Positions 51,788 through 63,078 of a stretch of 64,000 nucleotides of DNA are shown one piece after another. The notes below the pieces were generated by a model. That model was given only the letters and a program-made list of their open reading frames with translations. It did no database searches and had not been told where the DNA came from. Numbering within the stretch: the stretch's first letter is position 1; each line of letters opens with the position of its first letter. The DNA comes from Akkermansia massiliensis. Lineage in GTDB: Bacteria > Verrucomicrobiota > Verrucomicrobiia > Verrucomicrobiales > Akkermansiaceae. Position numbers and translations under genes: made by a program. Location of the stretch: contig NZ_JAMGSI010000001.1 of the NCBI RefSeq assembly GCF_023516715.1, positions 1,736,001 through 1,800,000 on the forward strand. Direction: 5' to 3'.

Positions 51788-53572
51788 CTAGAGGGACTGG
51801 CGGTCATACAATTCCCGGTACAGCGGGCAGGAGGCATAAAGTTCCGCATGAGTGCCGTCCCCGATGATGCGGCCGCCCTCAAACACCAGAATGCGCGTCG
51901 CCACGCGGATGGAGCTGAAGCGGTGGGCTACGATGAGAGCCGTCCTTCCCTCCACCAGGCGGTCCAGCTCCTGCTGGATCTGGGCCTCGCTTTCCGCGTC
52001 CAGGGAGGCGGTGGCTTCATCCAGAATCAGGACGGGGGCGTCTTTCAGGAAGGCGCGGGCAATCGCCACGCGCTGGCGCTGGCCGCCGGACAGGCCGCTG
52101 CCGCCGTCGCCAAGCATGGTCTGGTAGCCGTCCGGCATCCCCATGATGAAGCCGTCCGCGGCGGCGGCGCGCGCCGCGGCCATCACTTCCTCATCCGTGG
52201 CGTCCTGCCGCCCCAGCCGGATGTTTTCCATGATGGTGCCGTGGAAGAGCACGGGATGCTGGGAAACGAAGGCAATGTTCTTGCGCACATCGTGCAGGGA
52301 GGCGTCTCTCACATCCACGCCGTCCATGCGCAGGGTGCCGGAACTGACGTCGTAAAATCTGGGCAGAAGGCTGGCAAACGTGGTTTTCCCGGCGCCGCTG
52401 GGGCCTACCAGGCCCACCACTTCCCCGGGGCTGATATGAACGTCAATGCCGTCCAGCACCTTGCGGGCGCCGTCGTAGGAGAAGGAAACGCCGTCATAGT
52501 CCAGACGCCCGGAGGCTCGCCCCAGGGGAACGGGATTGGCGGCTTCCGGCATGGTGTCCGGCTCCTTCAGCAGGTAGTTGATGCGTTCCAGGGAGGCATG
52601 CGCGCTTTTCAGGTTGGTCAGCGTCACGCCCAGGCGCTTGAGGGGGTCGTAACACATGAAGAGGGCAGCGGCCAGGGCCGTGAAGTCAGCCTTGGTGATT
52701 CCCATTTCATGGCCCCTCACCAGCAGAATGCCCAGGCCCAGCGCCGTCACCATTTCCAGCACCGGCACCAGGAAGTGCCTGTACTTCACCGTTCTCAGAT
52801 TGATCTTGAAGAAGCGTTGGATCAGCCCCAGGAAAAGCCCCACCTGCTGTTCCTGCATGCCGTAGGAACGGATTTCACGCTGGGCCGCCAGGTTTTCCTG
52901 GGCGGCGGCCGTGATATTGCCCAGCTCGTCCTGCGCCTGCTTGGCCTTCTTCATCACGCGGCGGCCAAAGAAGCGGATGGGCCATATCGCCAGCACAACC
53001 AGCCCCAGATTCATCAGCACCACCGCCGTGTTCGGGTCAACAAAGACCTTGTACACCAGGAAGGCGAGTGCGGTCAGCAGGGTAAGGGGCTGTTTGATGA
53101 TGTCATTGGCCGCTATTACCAGGCCTCCCTGCACGTTGGCCGCGTCATTGATGAGGCGGCTGATCAGGTCCCCCCGTTTCTGGCGGTCAATGAAGGAGAG
53201 GGGCAGCGTTTGCAGTTTGGAAAAGGCGTCCAGCCTGATTTCCTCCAGCACCTTCATGCTGACGATGCTGATCCAGTACACATTGAAGAACGTGCCTATG
53301 CCCCGGATGGCAAAAACCAGCGGCAGCAGGGAACATACGGCCACGAGCACAGCGGTGTGCATGTGCTCCGGGGCCACCAGATGGGCGATGATGTTCTGAA
53401 GCTCCGGGGGAATCTGCGTATTGTCAAACACCACCGGAAACACCTTGGCAATCATCAGCGGGAAGCCGAAACCGCTGGCGGCGGCGGCCAGCGCCCCGGC
53501 GGCCAGCGCGGCGATGAACAGCTTCATCACCGGCTTCAAATACCGCGCGTACTCAAAAAACTGTCTTAACAT
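51788..53572 (-). CDS. ABC exporter half-transporter (MsbA/LmrA-type), second of a pair
   Basis: 594-aa half-transporter: six membrane helices in the first 320 residues, then an ATPase domain with Walker A GPSGAGKTTF, signature LSGGQRQRVAIARAF, Walker B VLILDEATASLD and H-loop VAHRFS. All catalytic parts are intact. It overlaps the end of the upstream ABC gene by 7 bases, and both have a similar N-terminal plan with a long first periplasmic loop, so they arose by duplication and may form a heterodimer. Candidates for cargo are lipid A, other lipids or drugs; nothing in the sequence decides. Confidence 0.88.
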   Translation of the reverse strand: MLRQFFEYARYLKPVMKLFIAALAAGALAAAASGFGFPLMIAKVFPVVFDNTQIPPELQNIIAHLVAPEHMHTAVLVAVCSLLPLVFAIRGIGTFFNVYWISIVSMKVLEEIRLDAFSKLQTLPLSFIDRQKRGDLISRLINDAANVQGGLVIAANDIIKQPLTLLTALAFLVYKVFVDPNTAVVLMNLGLVVLAIWPIRFFGRRVMKKAKQAQDELGNITAAAQENLAAQREIRSYGMQEQQVGLFLGLIQRFFKINLRTVKYRHFLVPVLEMVTALGLGILLVRGHEMGITKADFTALAAALFMCYDPLKRLGVTLTNLKSAHASLERINYLLKEPDTMPEAANPVPLGRASGRLDYDGVSFSYDGARKVLDGIDVHISPGEVVGLVGPSGAGKTTFASLLPRFYDVSSGTLRMDGVDVRDASLHDVRKNIAFVSQHPVLFHGTIMENIRLGRQDATDEEVMAAARAAAADGFIMGMPDGYQTMLGDGGSGLSGGQRQRVAIARAFLKDAPVLILDEATASLDAESEAQIQQELDRLVEGRTALIVAHRFSSIRVATRILVFEGGRIIGDGTHAELYASCPLYRELYDRQSL

Positions 53573-55416
53573 GAAGCGCCTCCTTCCTCTTCCGCAACCA
53601 TCTGCTGCTTGTTGTAAAGTTCCCTGTACAGGGGGGAGGAGGCCATCAGCTCCTCATGCGTGCCATCCGCAATGACGCTCCCTTTTTCCAGAACCAGAAT
53701 TCGGTCCGCCATCCGGATGGTGCTGAACCGGTGGGCAATGATGAAGGCCGTGCGTCCGGAAGCCAGCTTTTCAATCTCCTTCTGGATGAGTTCCTCGCTC
53801 TTCATGTCCAGGGAAGCCGTGGCTTCATCCAGCACCAGGATAGGCGCGTTTTTCAGAAAGGCCCTCGCCAGGGAAACGCGCTGCCGCTGGCCGCCGGAAA
53901 GCCCTTCCCCCATTTCTCCGATCATGCGGGAATAGCCTTCCCCCGTCTCATTGATGAAGCTGTCCACGGCGGACATGCGCCCGGCTTCCTCCACCTCCGC
54001 GTCGGAAGCGTCCGGACGGCCGATGCGGATATTGTCCGCCACGGATCCGCGGAACAGCACGGGATACTGGGAAACCAGCGCGATATGGGAAAGCAGGTCC
54101 TTCTTGGCCATCTCCCGCACGTCGATGCCGTCCACCTTCACGCTGCCGGAAAGTACGTCGTAAAAACGGCACAGCAAATTGATGAAGGTCGTTTTCCCGG
54201 CGCCGCTGGGGCCTACCAGGGCCACCACCTGGCCAGCCGGGATGCGGATGTCAATGTTCTTCATGACGGGAGCATCCTGCTGGTAGCCGAAGCACACATT
54301 GCTGAACTCCACTTCCCCCTTCCAGGCTTCCGGACTCTTCGGGTTTTCCGGTTCCGGAACGTCGTCCGGAGCGTCCAGCACATGGTTGATGCGCTCCAGC
54401 CCGGCATTCAGGGTTTCCGCCTTGTTGTGGACCGCCCCTAGCTTCTTGACCGGTTCATAGCAAAGGTACATGGCCGTAGCCAGCGCGGCGAAGTCCCCCA
54501 TGTTCATGCCGTTCATGTTGCCGACAAAGAGAGTGGCCGCCATGGCGATGGCGCTGACGAATTCAATCAAAGGCGTCAGCAGGCTCTGCCACCTGACCGC
54601 ACTGATGGAAGCCTGGATGTAACGGTGAATCCTGTTCCTGAACAGACTTGTCTGCTGCTCTTCCAGTTCAAAGGCCCGGATGTCCCGCTGGGAGGAAAAG
54701 TTTTCCTGAAGCGTGGAGGAAAGATCCCCCTGGCTGGACTGCACCACGCGAGCGCGGGCGAGCATTTTCTTGCCGATGTAGCGGATGGGAATCACGCAGA
54801 CGCCCACCAGGAGCATGTTCGCCAGCAAAATAAGGAACTGCTGGCTGACGGAGGCCCTGTAAATCAGGAATCCCAGCGCGGCCAGGAGGGTCAGGGGCTG
54901 GATAATCAGGTCATTGGCAATCTGCACCAGGCCGCCCTGCAGGAACTGCGTGTCCTGCATCAGGCGGCTCAGCAGGTCTCCCTTCTGCTGGCGGTCATGA
55001 AAGGCCAGGGATAAATCCTGGTATTTACGGTACACCTTGAGCCGCAGCGTTTCCAGCACGCCCAGCCCTATTTTGGAAAGCAGGTAGACATTGACGAAGG
55101 AGGAGAGGCCGCGCACCACCACTACCATCGGGAGCATGGCCGCCGTGGCCCACACCGTCACCCAGGGCAGGTTTTCCGGACTCACGTACCAGAGGAGCAC
55201 GCGCTCCGCCCACGGGGGCAGCGGCTTCCCGTCAAAGATCACGGGGAACATTTCCTGCAAAATCACCGGTATGCCGAAGCCGCTGGAAACAGCGGCCACC
55301 ATGCCGCCGATCACAGCCCACACCAGCGTGCCCTTATAGGGGAGAAGATATTCGCGCCATAATGCTACGGCGCGCTGGATGGAGGATTCCTGCCCCTCTG
55401 TTGACTGTTTCCTCAT
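53566..55416 (-). CDS. ABC exporter half-transporter (MsbA/LmrA-type), first of a pair
   Basis: 616-aa half-transporter with the same domain order as its neighbour: helices in the first 340 residues, Walker A GPSGAGKTTF, signature LSGGQRQRVSLARAF, Walker B LVLDEATASLD and H-loop IAHRFS. The ATG at 55416 (MRKQSTEGQESS) is used because a much longer frame upstream has no transporter character. Overlaps the second gene by 7 bases. Both ATPase sites look canonical, unlike many heterodimeric exporters in which one Walker B Glu is lost. Confidence 0.88.
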   Translation of the reverse strand: MRKQSTEGQESSIQRAVALWREYLLPYKGTLVWAVIGGMVAAVSSGFGIPVILQEMFPVIFDGKPLPPWAERVLLWYVSPENLPWVTVWATAAMLPMVVVVRGLSSFVNVYLLSKIGLGVLETLRLKVYRKYQDLSLAFHDRQQKGDLLSRLMQDTQFLQGGLVQIANDLIIQPLTLLAALGFLIYRASVSQQFLILLANMLLVGVCVIPIRYIGKKMLARARVVQSSQGDLSSTLQENFSSQRDIRAFELEEQQTSLFRNRIHRYIQASISAVRWQSLLTPLIEFVSAIAMAATLFVGNMNGMNMGDFAALATAMYLCYEPVKKLGAVHNKAETLNAGLERINHVLDAPDDVPEPENPKSPEAWKGEVEFSNVCFGYQQDAPVMKNIDIRIPAGQVVALVGPSGAGKTTFINLLCRFYDVLSGSVKVDGIDVREMAKKDLLSHIALVSQYPVLFRGSVADNIRIGRPDASDAEVEEAGRMSAVDSFINETGEGYSRMIGEMGEGLSGGQRQRVSLARAFLKNAPILVLDEATASLDMKSEELIQKEIEKLASGRTAFIIAHRFSTIRMADRILVLEKGSVIADGTHEELMASSPLYRELYNKQQMVAEEEGGASC

Positions 55417-55594
55417 AAGTAATTCCGGATTGATGCGCCCGGGAACGGACGGCGCGCAATCGGTGCAGATCATACCATGAAGATCGCGGATGACAAGCTC
55501 CTTGCGATAAAAACTCCTCAGGAAACGCCCGGAGGGAAAGCCGCCGGGCATCCCGGCTTGCCCGCCTCCCCGGAATGGTCTACCCTGCCGGCGC

Positions 55595-57007
55595 ATGCTG
55601 AAGACAGGATTAATCCAGCCGGAGACCATCCCCGGCCATTTCCCCAGGAACCTCAGAACCATCGTGGAACTGTACCGTTCCTGCGTGGACGGCGGGGCGG
55701 AGCTCGTTCTTTGTCCGCCGCTGGCCCTCAGTGGCGCGCACACCGGGGAACTGGCCCTGCGCAGCGGCTTCCGGTCCCAGCACAGGGCGGCCCAGGCCTA
55801 CCTGGCGCGGGAAATAGCGGACGTCCCCCTGCTGCTGGCAGCAGCGGACGCGGACGGCAGCCGCTTCCACATGCTCCGGAACGGCCTTTCCTTTCCACGG
55901 CAAGCCGTTATTTCCCCAGCCGCACACGGAACGGAGGCCGTTCCCGTTTTCGGCATCTGCCGGACGGCGGATGAAGCGGGTTTTTCCATCATTTCATGGC
56001 CGGAATCTTCCCCGGCATCTTCTTCCGTACCCTGCCTCTTGCTCCGCACCCATTCCGGCGCGTGGCATGAAGGACTGCTGGAGCAGGATGAGGAGGAAGC
56101 CTGCCGGCTGGCGCGGGAAACAAGGCTGCCGGTCCTCACTGCCCGCCTGGCCGGGGGAGAAGGCCCGTTTCTGTTACCCGGCGCGTCTTCCGCATGGTCC
56201 GCCCACGGGATTCTCCTCAAACGGCTGCGTCTTTTTGAACGGGATTCCGCCGTCATTTCTCCGGAAAATTCCACGGAGGCGTCTTCTCCGCTTCCCGCTC
56301 CGGAAGAACAGCTCCGGCACGCCCTCCGGAAAGGCACGGCGGACTTCATCCTGAAAAGCGGGCATGGCGCCGCCTGCCTGAACCTGCTGGAAAGCTCCGC
56401 ATCCCTCCTGCTGGCTCAACTGTTAAAAGAGGAACTGCCTTCCCTGCCCTTGACGGGCTTCATCCCCCGCCTCCCCGGCATTCCGGAACAGGACACTGCC
56501 CGGGCGCAAGCCTGTGCGGACAAGCTGGGCATTCAGGCCCGGATGCTGCCTCTCCCCGCAGATGCGGCGGCCGGAGGACCGGATGACCTGTTCACGGCCG
56601 CATGGCTCATGCGCCAATGGACCCAGGAGGAAGGTGCCCTGCTGCTGTCCGCCCTGACCGGAACGGACATCATGACCGCTCCCCGCCTCCTTCCGCCGGC
56701 CCTGGCCGCTGACTTCATGCCGCTGGGGGATTTATATGAAACGGAACTGGCGGACCTGTTCCCCGGCTTCCTTTCTCCTGCGCCGGATGCGGCCATGCGC
56801 GACAGCCTCCTCATCCGTCTGCACCGCGCGCATGAATCCGCCACGCCGCTGGCAGGCCTCTTCCCGGAATCGGAGCTTGAAATCCGCCGCTGGCAGCGCC
56901 GGGCCCGCGCCTCCGAATGGATGCGCCGGAAACTGCCGCCGCGCCTCACACTGCGATCCATTCCCGGTGCACCGGAAACGCCTTACGTCCACCGGCTGAC
57001 GGATTGA
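55595..57007 (+). CDS. Degenerate NAD synthetase-like protein (nitrilase + NadE halves), probably a pseudoenzyme
   Basis: 470-aa protein with the two-domain plan of glutamine-dependent NAD synthetase but with eroded active sites. In the nitrilase half the usual PELALTGY reads CPPLALSGAH, losing the catalytic Glu. In the synthetase half the ATP loop SGGxDS reads SGHGAAC. The late motif is recognisable: LLLSALTGTDIMTAP ... FMPLGDLYETELADLFP against the family's TGNKSE ... PLGDVYKT. It is shorter than true NadE (usually 540 or more). It begins on the plus strand 75 bases before mlaE. It is a full open frame, so the fold may be kept for a new role. Confidence 0.65.
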   Translation: MLKTGLIQPETIPGHFPRNLRTIVELYRSCVDGGAELVLCPPLALSGAHTGELALRSGFRSQHRAAQAYLAREIADVPLLLAAADADGSRFHMLRNGLSFPRQAVISPAAHGTEAVPVFGICRTADEAGFSIISWPESSPASSSVPCLLLRTHSGAWHEGLLEQDEEEACRLARETRLPVLTARLAGGEGPFLLPGASSAWSAHGILLKRLRLFERDSAVISPENSTEASSPLPAPEEQLRHALRKGTADFILKSGHGAACLNLLESSASLLLAQLLKEELPSLPLTGFIPRLPGIPEQDTARAQACADKLGIQARMLPLPADAAAGGPDDLFTAAWLMRQWTQEEGALLLSALTGTDIMTAPRLLPPALAADFMPLGDLYETELADLFPGFLSPAPDAAMRDSLLIRLHRAHESATPLAGLFPESELEIRRWQRRARASEWMRRKLPPRLTLRSIPGAPETPYVHRLTD

Positions 57008-57082
57008 CGCGGCGCGTTGCTTTTCTTCCCGTGGCGTACATTGCGCTTGCTCTTGAAGTGGAAGAAGTGATTAGTAGAAGCC

Positions 57083-57883
57083 ATGCAATTCTATGTAGCC
57101 ACCATGATCGGCCGCGCCGCTCTAAGGCTGGTTGACCGCCTGGGGTCAATCGGATTGCTGCTTTACCAAGTGACCGCATGCATGTGGTCCGGCAAATTCC
57201 GGATGCGCGTTCTTGTGGAGCAAATTGCAAAAATCGGGGTGCAGTCCCAGCCGGTGGTCATCATCACCGGCGCGTTCACCGGAGCCGTGCTGGAAGCCCA
57301 GACCCTGTTCCAGCTCCAGACGGTGAGGATGGAAACCATGGGGGGCGCCGTCGTCGCCGTGGGCATGTTCCGGGAACTGGGGCCCGTCATTACCGGGCTG
57401 ATGCTTGCGGGCCGCGTCGGGTCCGCCATGGCAGCGGAAATCGGGACCATGAAAGTCACGGAACAGGTAGACGCCCTTAACTCCATGAACGTGGACCCGG
57501 TGGACTACCTGGTGAAGCCCCGCATCCAGGCCATGCTCATTTCCATGCCTATCCTGATGATGGAAGCCGTGCTGGTGGGCATCGCCTCCGCCTACATCGT
57601 CAGTATCACCTCCTTTAACGTGGACCAGGCTTACTGGATGCACTTCATGAGCAAATTCGTCACCATGGGGGACATCACCGTGGCCCTGGTCAAAGCCCTG
57701 GTCTTCGGCCTCATCATCTCCACCATCTCCTGCCGGGAAGGCCTGAACACCACGAACGGAGCCGTTGGCGTCGGCAAATCCACCATGCAGGCCATGGTGT
57801 ATGCCTCCGTGGCCCTGCTCATCGCCAACTTCATTCTGACCATGATTCTCAATTCCATCTTCCCCATGGGATTCATGAGATAA
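57083..57883 (+). CDS. mlaE: Phospholipid ABC transporter permease MlaE (YrbE)
   Basis: 266-aa permease with five or six helices. Marks are VEQIAKIGVQSQPVVIITGAFTGAVLEAQ near residue 40, VGMFRELGPVITGLMLAGRVGSAMAAEIGTMKVTEQVDAL, the most conserved part of the family, and DYLVKPRIQAMLI. With MlaF and MlaD it moves phospholipids between the membranes of a diderm cell. The next gene begins 15 bases downstream. No MlaB, MlaC or MlaA is nearby. Confidence 0.93.
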   Translation: MQFYVATMIGRAALRLVDRLGSIGLLLYQVTACMWSGKFRMRVLVEQIAKIGVQSQPVVIITGAFTGAVLEAQTLFQLQTVRMETMGGAVVAVGMFRELGPVITGLMLAGRVGSAMAAEIGTMKVTEQVDALNSMNVDPVDYLVKPRIQAMLISMPILMMEAVLVGIASAYIVSITSFNVDQAYWMHFMSKFVTMGDITVALVKALVFGLIISTISCREGLNTTNGAVGVGKSTMQAMVYASVALLIANFILTMILNSIFPMGFMR

Positions 57884-57898: not shown

Positions 57899-58717
57899 AT
57901 GCAGCCATTCATCCGCGTCCACCAGCTCAAGCAAAGCTTCGGTACCCAGGAAGTGCTGAAAGGCGTGAGCTTTGACGTGGGAAAGGGAGAGCTGATGGCT
58001 CTGATCGGCGGGTCAGGGGCTGGAAAAAGCGTCATCCTGAAACATCTGGACGGCCTGATGGACCCGCTGGACGGCTATGTGGAAATAGACGGCAGGCGCA
58101 TCAGCGGAGCGCCGGAAAAAATCAAGAAGCAAATCCGCGGTAAAATAGGCTTCATGTTCCAGCAGGGGGCACTCTTCGACTCCCTCAGCGTAGGGGAAAA
58201 CGTCGCCTTCCCGCTGCGCGAGGAAGGAATCCGGAATGAAAAGGAGCTGGACGCGCGCATCTCCGCCGCCCTGGACTCCGTGGACCTGCTGGGGCAGCAG
58301 GAAAAAATGCCGGCCAGCCTCTCCGGAGGCATGATCAAGCGCGTAGCCGTAGCCAGGGCCATCGTCACCACACCGGAATGCCTGCTGTATGACGAGCCCA
58401 CCGCAGGCCTGGACCCCATTGTCACGGACAGCATCAGCTTCCTCATCCGGCAAATCTGCAAGGACAAGGGAATCACGACCGTCATCGTCTCCCATGACAT
58501 GCCCAGCGTGATCCGCATTGCGGACAAAATCGTCTATCTCAGGAACGGGGAAGTTTACTGGACGGGAACCCCGGAGGAGCTGCTGCATTCCAGGGATGAA
58601 AACCTGCAAAGGTTCCTGTACGGGGATTCCGGGGAAGACTGGGCCTCCCTGACCGGCAGGCATGAAAACTTTCAACGGGTTCTGCTGGAACGGGCGGAAC
58701 GTGAACGGAAACAATAA
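57899..58717 (+). CDS. mlaF: Phospholipid ABC transporter ATPase MlaF
   Basis: 272-aa ATPase. Walker A GGSGAGKSV (residues 37-45), Q-loop FMFQQGALFDSL, signature LSGGMIKRVAVARAI, Walker B CLLYDEPTAGLDPI and H-loop VSHDM. The signature LSGGMxKR is typical of the Mla/Mkl branch. Located between mlaE and mlaD. Confidence 0.93.
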   Translation: MQPFIRVHQLKQSFGTQEVLKGVSFDVGKGELMALIGGSGAGKSVILKHLDGLMDPLDGYVEIDGRRISGAPEKIKKQIRGKIGFMFQQGALFDSLSVGENVAFPLREEGIRNEKELDARISAALDSVDLLGQQEKMPASLSGGMIKRVAVARAIVTTPECLLYDEPTAGLDPIVTDSISFLIRQICKDKGITTVIVSHDMPSVIRIADKIVYLRNGEVYWTGTPEELLHSRDENLQRFLYGDSGEDWASLTGRHENFQRVLLERAERERKQ

Positions 58718-58735: not shown

Positions 58736-59719
58736 ATGAAGCAGAAACTTAAGCCGGAAACCTGGGTGGGCATCTTCCTGATTGCCGGAATCCTGATGAT
58801 CATCGGCGTCATCCTGGGGTTCGGCAACATCAAGACCTCCAAGGAGCAAACCTACCCCATCAACATCATTTTCAAGGACGCGGCGGGCCTCATCAAGGAC
58901 TCCCAGCTCCGCCTGGGCGGCGTTACGGTGGGAAAGGTCACCAAGGCGCCCGAACTCCTGCCCTCCGGCAATGAAGTCATGCTGGAAGCCAGCATCCTGA
59001 GCGACGTGAAAATCCAGGAAGGCTCCGTCTTCCGCGTGGACATGCAGAACATCCTGGGAGACAAGTACATCGACATCGTTCCCCCGGCACGCCCCACGCA
59101 CGAATACATCCCGCCCCATGCCACCATCATCGGGCAGCCTGAAAGCGACTTCAGCAAGATCAAGAATAACGCCGTGGGCGCCACGGAGGAAATACTGAAA
59201 ATCCTCAAGCAGATTGAAAAAAATTCGGACAACATTGACGAGGCCATTCTCAACATCGGGGAAGCGGCCAAAGGGCTGGCCCAGACCACCAAGCTGATCA
59301 ATGAAGGCATCCTGAGCCGGGAAAACCTCCGGCACCTCAACAGCGTGCTGGCTCAAATGAACAAAGCGGGCGAACAGCTCCCCGCGACAATGGCGGCCAT
59401 GAAAGACACCGTCAGTGACGCCCGCAGAATCATCGCCGGAGCGGAAGAAAAGCTCAACAGCCTGGACCCCGCCATCAAGGAAATCCCCCCCACGCTGACC
59501 GCCCTGCGCAAGGCTTCCGAGCAAATCGCCTCCGTCACGGCGGACGCCCGGAAAAACCAGGGCTTCCTGGGGCTGCTCATGTACGATGCGCGCTTCCGCG
59601 CCAATGCCCAGGAATTCATCCGTAACCTGAGGGACTACGGAATCCTGCGGTACCGGAACCCGAACGAGCCCCAGGCCAAACCAGACCCCCGCGGCGGTTT
59701 TTCAGGAAGCCGCCGCTGA
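58736..59719 (+). CDS. mlaD: MCE-domain substrate-binding protein MlaD
   Basis: 327-aa protein with one N-terminal membrane helix (WVGIFLIAGILMIIGVILGF) and an MCE domain (about residues 38-120: YPINIIFKDAAGLIKDSQLRLGGVTVGKV ... VDMQNILGDKYIDIVP). The remaining 200 residues are a long helical, coiled-coil-like tail that may extend into the periplasm as in larger MCE proteins. It is longer than E. coli MlaD (183 aa). Last of the mla run. Confidence 0.92.
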   Translation: MKQKLKPETWVGIFLIAGILMIIGVILGFGNIKTSKEQTYPINIIFKDAAGLIKDSQLRLGGVTVGKVTKAPELLPSGNEVMLEASILSDVKIQEGSVFRVDMQNILGDKYIDIVPPARPTHEYIPPHATIIGQPESDFSKIKNNAVGATEEILKILKQIEKNSDNIDEAILNIGEAAKGLAQTTKLINEGILSRENLRHLNSVLAQMNKAGEQLPATMAAMKDTVSDARRIIAGAEEKLNSLDPAIKEIPPTLTALRKASEQIASVTADARKNQGFLGLLMYDARFRANAQEFIRNLRDYGILRYRNPNEPQAKPDPRGGFSGSRR

Positions 59720-61995: not shown

Positions 61996-63078
61996 ATGAG
62001 CGAATACATTTTGCCCCACGTCGACGGATATCTTAAGCTTGGACAGGACTTTGACTGTTCCGATATCCACCTTGCCGTCAACAGCCGCCCCACCTGGCGC
62101 CGGTTCGGCCAGCTTCTCCCCATCTGGGAGGAAGCGCCCAATCTCACGCCCCAGGACACGGAAGTTCTGGCGAGGGGCTTTCTGGAAGACCCGGAATGGA
62201 ACCGCCTTCAATTAAAGGGGGACGTGGACTTTGCCTATGCCAACGACTTCGGACGCTACCGCGCTTCCGTGGTCAAGCAGCGCCTGGGCTATGACATCTG
62301 CTTCCGCATCATCAACACGCGGGTGCGCACCATGGAGGAAATCGGCCTGCCGACGGAATACGTGGTGCCCCTCACCCGCTACACCAACGGCCTCATTCTG
62401 GTGACGGGCTCCGTGGGTTCCGGTAAATCCACCACCCTGGCCTCCATCGTGGACTTCATCAACCAGGACCGCCACGACCACATCATCACGCTTGAAGACC
62501 CCATCGAATACCTGATTCCCTCCAAAAACTGCCACGTCAACCAGCGTGAAGTGCACAAGCACACGGAATCCTTCGCGCGCGCCCTCCGCGGGGCCCTCCG
62601 TGAAGACCCGGACGTCATCATGGTAGGTGAAATGCGCGACCTGGAAACCATCTCCCTGGCGCTCACGGCGGCTGAAACCGGCCACCTGGTGCTCGGCACC
62701 CTGCACACGGGGTCCGCAGCCCGCACGGTGGACCGCGTGCTGGACGTCTTCCCGGTGGAGCAGCGCGACCAGATCCGCATCATGGTCAGTGAATCCCTGC
62801 GCGGCATCATCTCCCAGCAGCTCGTTCCCAGGGCGGACGGCAACGGCCGCGCCCTGGCCATTGAAATGCTGGTCAATACACCCGCCATCGCCAACTGCAT
62901 CCGCGAAGGAAAGACATTCATGATTCCCGGCTGCATCCAGACCGGGAAGGCCCAGGGCATGATCCTGATGGATGACTCCCTCCGGGCGCTGCACCAGGCA
63001 GGTCTCATCACCACGGAAGACTGCATCTTCCGCGCGGAAGACAAAACCATCATGAAATCCTTCCTGGGAATCAAGTAA
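61996..63078 (+). CDS. pilT: PilT/PilU-type twitching ATPase (first of two)
   Basis: 360-aa retraction ATPase of type IV pili. It has Walker A GSVGSGKST (residues 138-146), the Asp box EDPIEYLIPS, Walker B DPDVIMVGEMRD and the His box TLHTGSAARTVDR. The normal PilT motif is GPTGSGKST; here it is GSVGSGKST. The C-terminal AIRE-like stretch reads NCIREGK. A second pilT-like gene follows 25 bases later and shares an almost identical DNA stretch. Paired PilT and PilU genes are common in species with type IV pili. No pilin gene is in the window. Confidence 0.9.
   Translation: MSEYILPHVDGYLKLGQDFDCSDIHLAVNSRPTWRRFGQLLPIWEEAPNLTPQDTEVLARGFLEDPEWNRLQLKGDVDFAYANDFGRYRASVVKQRLGYDICFRIINTRVRTMEEIGLPTEYVVPLTRYTNGLILVTGSVGSGKSTTLASIVDFINQDRHDHIITLEDPIEYLIPSKNCHVNQREVHKHTESFARALRGALREDPDVIMVGEMRDLETISLALTAAETGHLVLGTLHTGSAARTVDRVLDVFPVEQRDQIRIMVSESLRGIISQQLVPRADGNGRALAIEMLVNTPAIANCIREGKTFMIPGCIQTGKAQGMILMDDSLRALHQAGLITTEDCIFRAEDKTIMKSFLGIK

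Follow-up and report, generated by a model that had tools for sequence, protein, structure and literature searches.

A putative pseudoenzyme derived from glutamine-dependent NAD synthetase, encoded upstream of mlaEFD in Akkermansia massiliensis

The window, which is the whole stretch of 64,000 nucleotides of Akkermansia massiliensis DNA that was analysed, carries a gene for a homologue of NAD synthetase without catalytic residues. From comparison of its sequence, this gene (pseudo-NadE2) is an inherited copy of the dimeric NadE2Gln carried by most genomes of the host's family. Both the glutaminase site and the ATP loop of the synthetase are lost in its product, as read from the alignments. The window gene is homologous to an enzyme, has lost the catalytic residues and looks kept by selection, as a pseudoenzyme would be. 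It is quite probable that pseudo-NadE2 is a selected, non-catalytic protein. The features of the gene and of its context are as follows.

55595-57007, forward strand: pseudo-NadE2 gene (open reading frame of 470 codons plus stop; full-length homology by hhalign; dN/dS below 1)
55595-56290, forward strand: part derived from the glutaminase (nitrilase fold), residues 1-232 (alignment and hhalign; boundary approximate)
55718-55720, forward strand: Pro42 of CPPLALSG, standing where intact enzymes have the catalytic Glu (family alignment counts)
56291-57004, forward strand: part derived from the NAD synthetase domain, residues 233-470 (hhalign and profile match to PDB 4f4h; boundary approximate)
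56387-56404, forward strand: position of the SGGxDS ATP-binding loop, here LESSAS, residues 265-270 (alignments)
56642-56758, forward strand: remnant of the LLTTGNKSELAVG... region of intact enzymes, here LLSALTGTDIMTA...PLGDLYETELADL (alignments)
57083-57883, forward strand: mlaE, context outside the feature (Pfam MlaE, 1.3e-71)
57899-58717, forward strand: mlaF, context (Pfam ABC_tran, 1.5e-31)
58736-59719, forward strand: mlaD, context (Pfam MlaD, 4e-13)

Homology to NadE2Gln and the catalytic positions

In single-sequence searches, the window protein matched Pfam CN_hydrolase at 13.9 bits, under the cut-off of 23.2, and had no Pfam match to NAD_synthase. It scored 37.1 bits against NCBIfam NF010588 (NAD+ synthase; E 1.2e-9), where the cut-off of 479 was not reached, and 13.3 bits against NF002730 (NadE1Gln; cut-off 473). 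Searched alone against the PDB, it matched 4f4h, a glutamine-dependent NAD+ synthetase, with an E of 5.3e-11. Matches to retinoid receptors and a carboxylase had E above 1 and were taken as chance. Individually, 19 of 26 genus copies match PF02540 and 19 of 26 match PF00795; the window copy matches neither at 0.01. These 26 copies, with the window protein as first sequence, were aligned through hhalign with 20 intact NadE2 proteins of the family, which gave a probability of 100 and an E of 2.7e-67 over 484 columns. The profile of the 26 copies also matches 4f4h (E 7e-46, profile positions 4-490). Because of the hhalign alignment and this profile match, the NadE2 ancestry is not in doubt. An earlier reading of the window, made from the sequence only, had recognized the domain plan of glutamine-dependent NadE and had proposed a profile search against NadE. 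The plan is recovered over the full length by the first of these comparisons and the proposed search finds its target by the second. The block LLSALTGTDIMTA...PLGDLYETELADL, which had been recognized as well, aligns with LLTTGNKSELAVG...ISDLPKT of NadE2. AlphaFold, run on the window protein with four relatives (L001-L004; five sequences), returned a pLDDT of 38.8 and a pTM of 0.33.

Intact members of the family also have 4f4h as their best PDB match (2e-137 for L049). The entries 4f4h and 3dla are taken here to be the B. thailandensis and M. tuberculosis enzymes, respectively. In passages of PMC7196632, the enzymes of B. thailandensis and M. tuberculosis are assigned to two groups, dimeric NadE2Gln and octameric NadE1Gln, respectively. 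From the naming of the B. thailandensis enzyme in these passages, PRK13981 (NF010588) presumably corresponds to the NadE2Gln group of that paper. The window protein shares domain order, N-terminal and C-terminal sequence blocks, and full-length homology with NadE2Gln, but its Glu, Lys, Cys, and SGGxDS are gone and it is 75 residues shorter than L049. NadE1Gln (octameric, NF002730, PRK02628, M. tuberculosis type) is a distant homologue.

Sites were counted in an alignment of 133 family members, among them 59 full-length intact relatives and 65 genus copies besides that of genome G097, which is described below. All 59 intact relatives keep the E, K, and C residues and the GGxDS loop. In the 65 genus copies, all three residues are missing from their aligned positions, and SGGxDS was found nowhere in any of these sequences. 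For the window protein, the alignment shows a deletion where the Lys segment would be, another residue at the Cys position, and Pro42 at the Glu position. The earlier claims that both active sites are lost and that the nitrilase Glu motif reads CPPLALSG are thus borne out. The ATP loop had been misplaced. SGHGAAC, which was taken for it, aligns just before the P-loop, opposite KCGFTSAC of the intact L049, and it is LESSAS (265-270) that aligns with SGGxDS. The loop is lost regardless.

The protein might instead be a functional NAD synthetase with moved catalytic residues, or an ammonia-dependent one. Sequence at the C-terminus does persist, as does some of the GNKSE region, both more clearly in other genus copies (e.g., FTLYGESCG) than in the window copy, and G097 makes an ammonia-dependent intermediate plausible. 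However, with SGGxDS absent from all 65 copies, with the residues in place of SGGxDS and at the other catalytic positions differing from copy to copy, and with an intact NadE1 in the same genome, such an activity is extremely unlikely.

Conservation and selection within the genus

Four close relatives of the window protein (L001-L004) are 74-94% identical to it, and all are from Akkermansia. A relative is present in 67 of 76 genus genomes. The other nine have no copy even by profile search, and five of these are at least 94% complete; the gene is thus dispensable. With the copy of G108 left out, 66 of the 67 were read. Besides G097, 64 of 65 have uninterrupted frames of 407-501 residues, compared with about 545 in intact relatives, and the copy of G135 is split across two frames. 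The sequence-only reading had argued for selection from the frame being fully open over 470 codons. The frame is open, but openness by itself is weak evidence in this DNA because a 183-amino-acid antisense frame is also open within 55595-57007. It is the substitution rates that support selection.

For pseudo-NadE2, dN/dS was computed in 20 genus pairs and lies within 0.08-0.55 throughout. For intact NadE2 it is 0.03-0.09 (seven pairs), and for mlaE, mlaF, and mlaD it is 0.02-0.12 (12 comparisons). In the same four comparisons, the dN of pseudo-NadE2 exceeds that of the mla genes by a factor of 3 to 24, so relaxed constraint contributes. Pseudo-NadE2 is under clear yet looser constraint than intact NadE2 and the mla genes. 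Across 64 genus copies, 46 positions are at least 90% fixed, and 14 of these differ from the commonest residue of the 59 intact relatives. The derived positions include Leu20, Arg21, Arg56, Gln62, Trp157, Pro376, Tyr381, Pro448, and His466 (window numbering), and the G097 copy has 12 of the 14. Residues 1-85 are the best conserved (mean identity 0.54 in genus copies and 0.74 in intact enzymes). Conservation is lowest in residues 86-146 (0.23) and 281-345 (0.26).

Alternatively, the gene may be a decaying pseudogene. In that case a redundant NadE2 would be drifting to loss, and the frames would still be open because the loss proceeds slowly. The nine genomes without a copy, the split frame of G135, the shortening of the genus copies, and the rapid change of the protein all favor this. 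On the other side stand the dN/dS values, the 64 uninterrupted frames, and the 14 derived positions. Drift by itself would not leave these positions nearly fixed among very divergent copies, and a pseudogene is considered unlikely.

Gene neighborhood

The stop codon of pseudo-NadE2 and the start of mlaE are separated by 75 nt (57008-57082) on the same strand, and the gene is indeed encoded before mlaEFD as first noted. A nucleotide-enzyme fold reused next to a phospholipid transport operon had been suggested on this basis, with conservation of the linkage as a check. MlaE adjoins pseudo-NadE2 in 13 of 66 genus loci, which are those of 12 core Akkermansia genomes and G101. Core genomes are those whose copy is at least 60% identical to the window copy, and all 12 of them have the linkage. 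At the other 53 loci MlaE was not found beside the gene, although four of these have less than 350 nt of downstream DNA, and none was found in the stretch covered at 17 loci from other genera. The neighbors of the gene vary between clades of the genus. This variation and four families that look like real genes (F7, F2, F4, and F1) are all that was used from the clustering of neighbors by longest frames, which had included antisense frames (F3, F9, and F10, by eye). The linkage in the window is real and holds within the core. The gene looks older than this arrangement, which seems to be specific to the lineage, and membership of pseudo-NadE2 in the mla operon is weakened as a candidate. A role in phospholipid transport is weakly supported because the linkage is local.

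Two tandem ABC exporters (51788-55743, minus strand), about 46% identical to each other, are divergent from pseudo-NadE2. Five core loci with long flanks were examined (L001-L004 and L046), and the two exporters are kept upstream of the gene in all of them. A terminator-like match is present at 57005-57019, in a weak scan that gave five such matches in the region where 1.4 were expected. The segment 57038-57054 before mlaE shows no differences among the six core sequences aligned, which suggests that mlaE may have its own promoter. Another possibility is that pseudo-NadE2 serves one transport system, either the Mla phospholipid transporter or the divergent ABC exporters, as its dedicated partner. 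The short same-strand distance to mlaE and the linkage in the core and G101 would favor this. With MlaE not found at 53 of the loci, with neighbors that change between clades, and with the terminator-like match and conserved block hinting, from weak scans, at separate transcription, a dedicated partnership of this kind is very unlikely.

Around the start of pseudo-NadE2 (55400-55610) no Shine-Dalgarno sequence is evident by eye. A TACCCT-like hexamer is present about 10 nt 5' of the ATG and varies in two of five aligned rows. Judged by eye, the transcript may be almost leaderless. Farther along the window, an open reading frame at 61996-63078 resembles a PilT-type ATPase by eye, and a possible second one starts at the window end.

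NadE1, the fate of NadE2 and its possible role

The window's own genome has four PF02540 matches, among them L005 and L007; two others look MnmA-like and GuaA-like by eye. L005 encodes a protein of 689 amino acids with FPELSITGY, PKTVLP, EICEDLW, and SGGLDS. It scores 814.6 bits against NF002730 (PRK02628-type NAD(+) synthase; cut-off 473), and its best PDB match is 3dla (4e-134, residues 46-686). The true nadE that the sequence-only reading had proposed to look for elsewhere in the genome is thus present, as an intact NadE1Gln. Within the genus, NadE1 was found in 72 of 76 genomes (73 matches less that of G097, which is its own NadE2). None was found in G113, G114, or G157, and G158 has a 50-residue piece only. 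For G157, which is 97% complete, neither a NadE1 nor a NadE2 relative was found; this could reflect a gap in the assembly or a different way of obtaining NAD.

The exception among the genus copies is that of G097 (L117, 1471-3057, minus strand). Alone among those read, it keeps SGGVDS, ENMQSRIRG, and GNKSE; its glutaminase triad is gone. It scores 422 bits against NF010588, under the cut-off of 479, and 210 bits against the synthetase-domain model TIGR00552, above the cut-off of 64. No NadE1 was found in G097, the sole match there being its own NadE2. The genome is estimated as 99% complete with 6% contamination, the latter being a caution on this reading. The G097 protein is probably an ammonia-dependent NAD synthetase. 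As read from its genes, G097 is a natural control in which the synthetase site is kept where NadE1 was not found. In a NadE2 gene tree in which 20 dead genus copies were included, G097 falls outside them (support 100/100). In an rpoB tree it groups within one of the two clades of the genus (100/100). An rpoB-like grouping of NadE2 was not rejected by the AU test (p 0.227). The genus could have seen a single loss of the synthetase site or two, and the dead copies may be drawn together in the tree by long branches.

Co-occurrence was explored in 97 genomes of the host's family, with the presence of NadE1 read by hand among the matches listed. G074, which has only pieces of a possible NadE1, was entered as without it. 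Among the matches listed, genomes with NadE1 have lost the synthetase site of NadE2 in 15 cases, lack NadE2 in 18, and keep the site in 10. Those without NadE1 have lost the site in none, lack NadE2 in two, keep the site in 51, and have a fragment in one. Fisher's test gives p 1.4e-14, pooling lost with absent and treating related genomes as independent; the number of independent decays behind it is small. Redundancy does not force decay, since 10 family genomes hold an intact NadE2 beside NadE1 among the matches listed. The genus accounts for 10 of the 15 site-lost cases, and the other five are in two genera, g14 and g9. These degenerate copies outside the genus (L041, L055, L044, L138, and L139) are in genomes with NadE1. 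The triad and SGGxDS are all lost in G014 and G009. In G032 and G073 the Cys has become Gly and SGGxDS has become NGxIES, and in G080 the triad is kept and the loop reads SGGIGS. G009, G073, G032, and G080 have upstream neighbors in common with the intact copy of G041. Parallel decay in g9 is suggested because its members differ in which site went first. At the level of the order, at least 38 of 142 genomes match above the NadE2 cut-off and the others mostly have a longer, NadE1-like frame among the matches listed. Exchange between the two types therefore looks common in the order.

For a selected non-catalytic protein, the following course can be proposed. The glutaminase triad would have been lost first in the genus, as G097 is without the triad but with the synthetase site. 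NadE1 would then have rendered the NadE2 synthetase redundant, and the synthetase site would have decayed afterwards, with the protein retained as a pseudoenzyme. At present pseudo-NadE2 probably acts in the cytosol, in binding or in regulation. A soluble binding protein, for which we infer the role with less certainty, would agree with a lack of signal sequence by eye. Binding could occur through the better-kept N-terminal (1-85) and C-terminal (426-470) regions, and what is bound would most plausibly be another protein or else a nucleotide (NAD or NaAD), with the effect of tuning NAD metabolism. That the role lies specifically in NAD metabolism is put forward tentatively. It is rather doubtful that the dead NadE2 would be a dedicated regulator of NAD supply, which, released from catalysis, would keep a surface for a nucleotide or a partner and would control NadE1 or couple the NAD state to another process. 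In core Akkermansia the coupled process would perhaps be envelope lipid transport. If the regulator reading is true, replacement of one NAD synthetase by another would have led, on more than one occasion in the family, to the displaced enzyme becoming a regulator. NadE2Gln is regulated by a PII protein and by NAD feedback, according to passages of PMC7196632. PII (PF00543) had no match in the window's own genome, versus matches in 13 of 14 control genomes, so PII regulation is unlikely here, and the dead NadE2 as a PII partner was dropped.

No paper dealing with a pseudoenzyme akin to NAD synthetase or nitrilase was found in the open-licence literature searched. The term inactive does not occur in the portions available of PMC7196632, nor do the terms inactive and Akkermansia in those of PMC3376133. 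Akkermansia strains can make every vitamin but B12 according to PMC6593275, in whose passages on vitamin synthesis a second NadE is unmentioned. The presence of two NAD synthetase homologues in a genome does not equal two activities, and this calls for caution. The family offers a natural experiment in which a displaced housekeeping enzyme can become a pseudoenzyme: NadE2 is intact in some genomes, half-dead in G097, and dead or absent in others, and its state tracks the presence of the replacement enzyme. It also provides a concrete, testable gene in a widely studied gut genus. Among known systems, the bacterial pseudokinase families, as described in passages of PMC12599244, have a fold other than that of the NAD synthetase homologue found here, but likewise have lost catalytic residues from a conserved enzyme fold while the protein is maintained.
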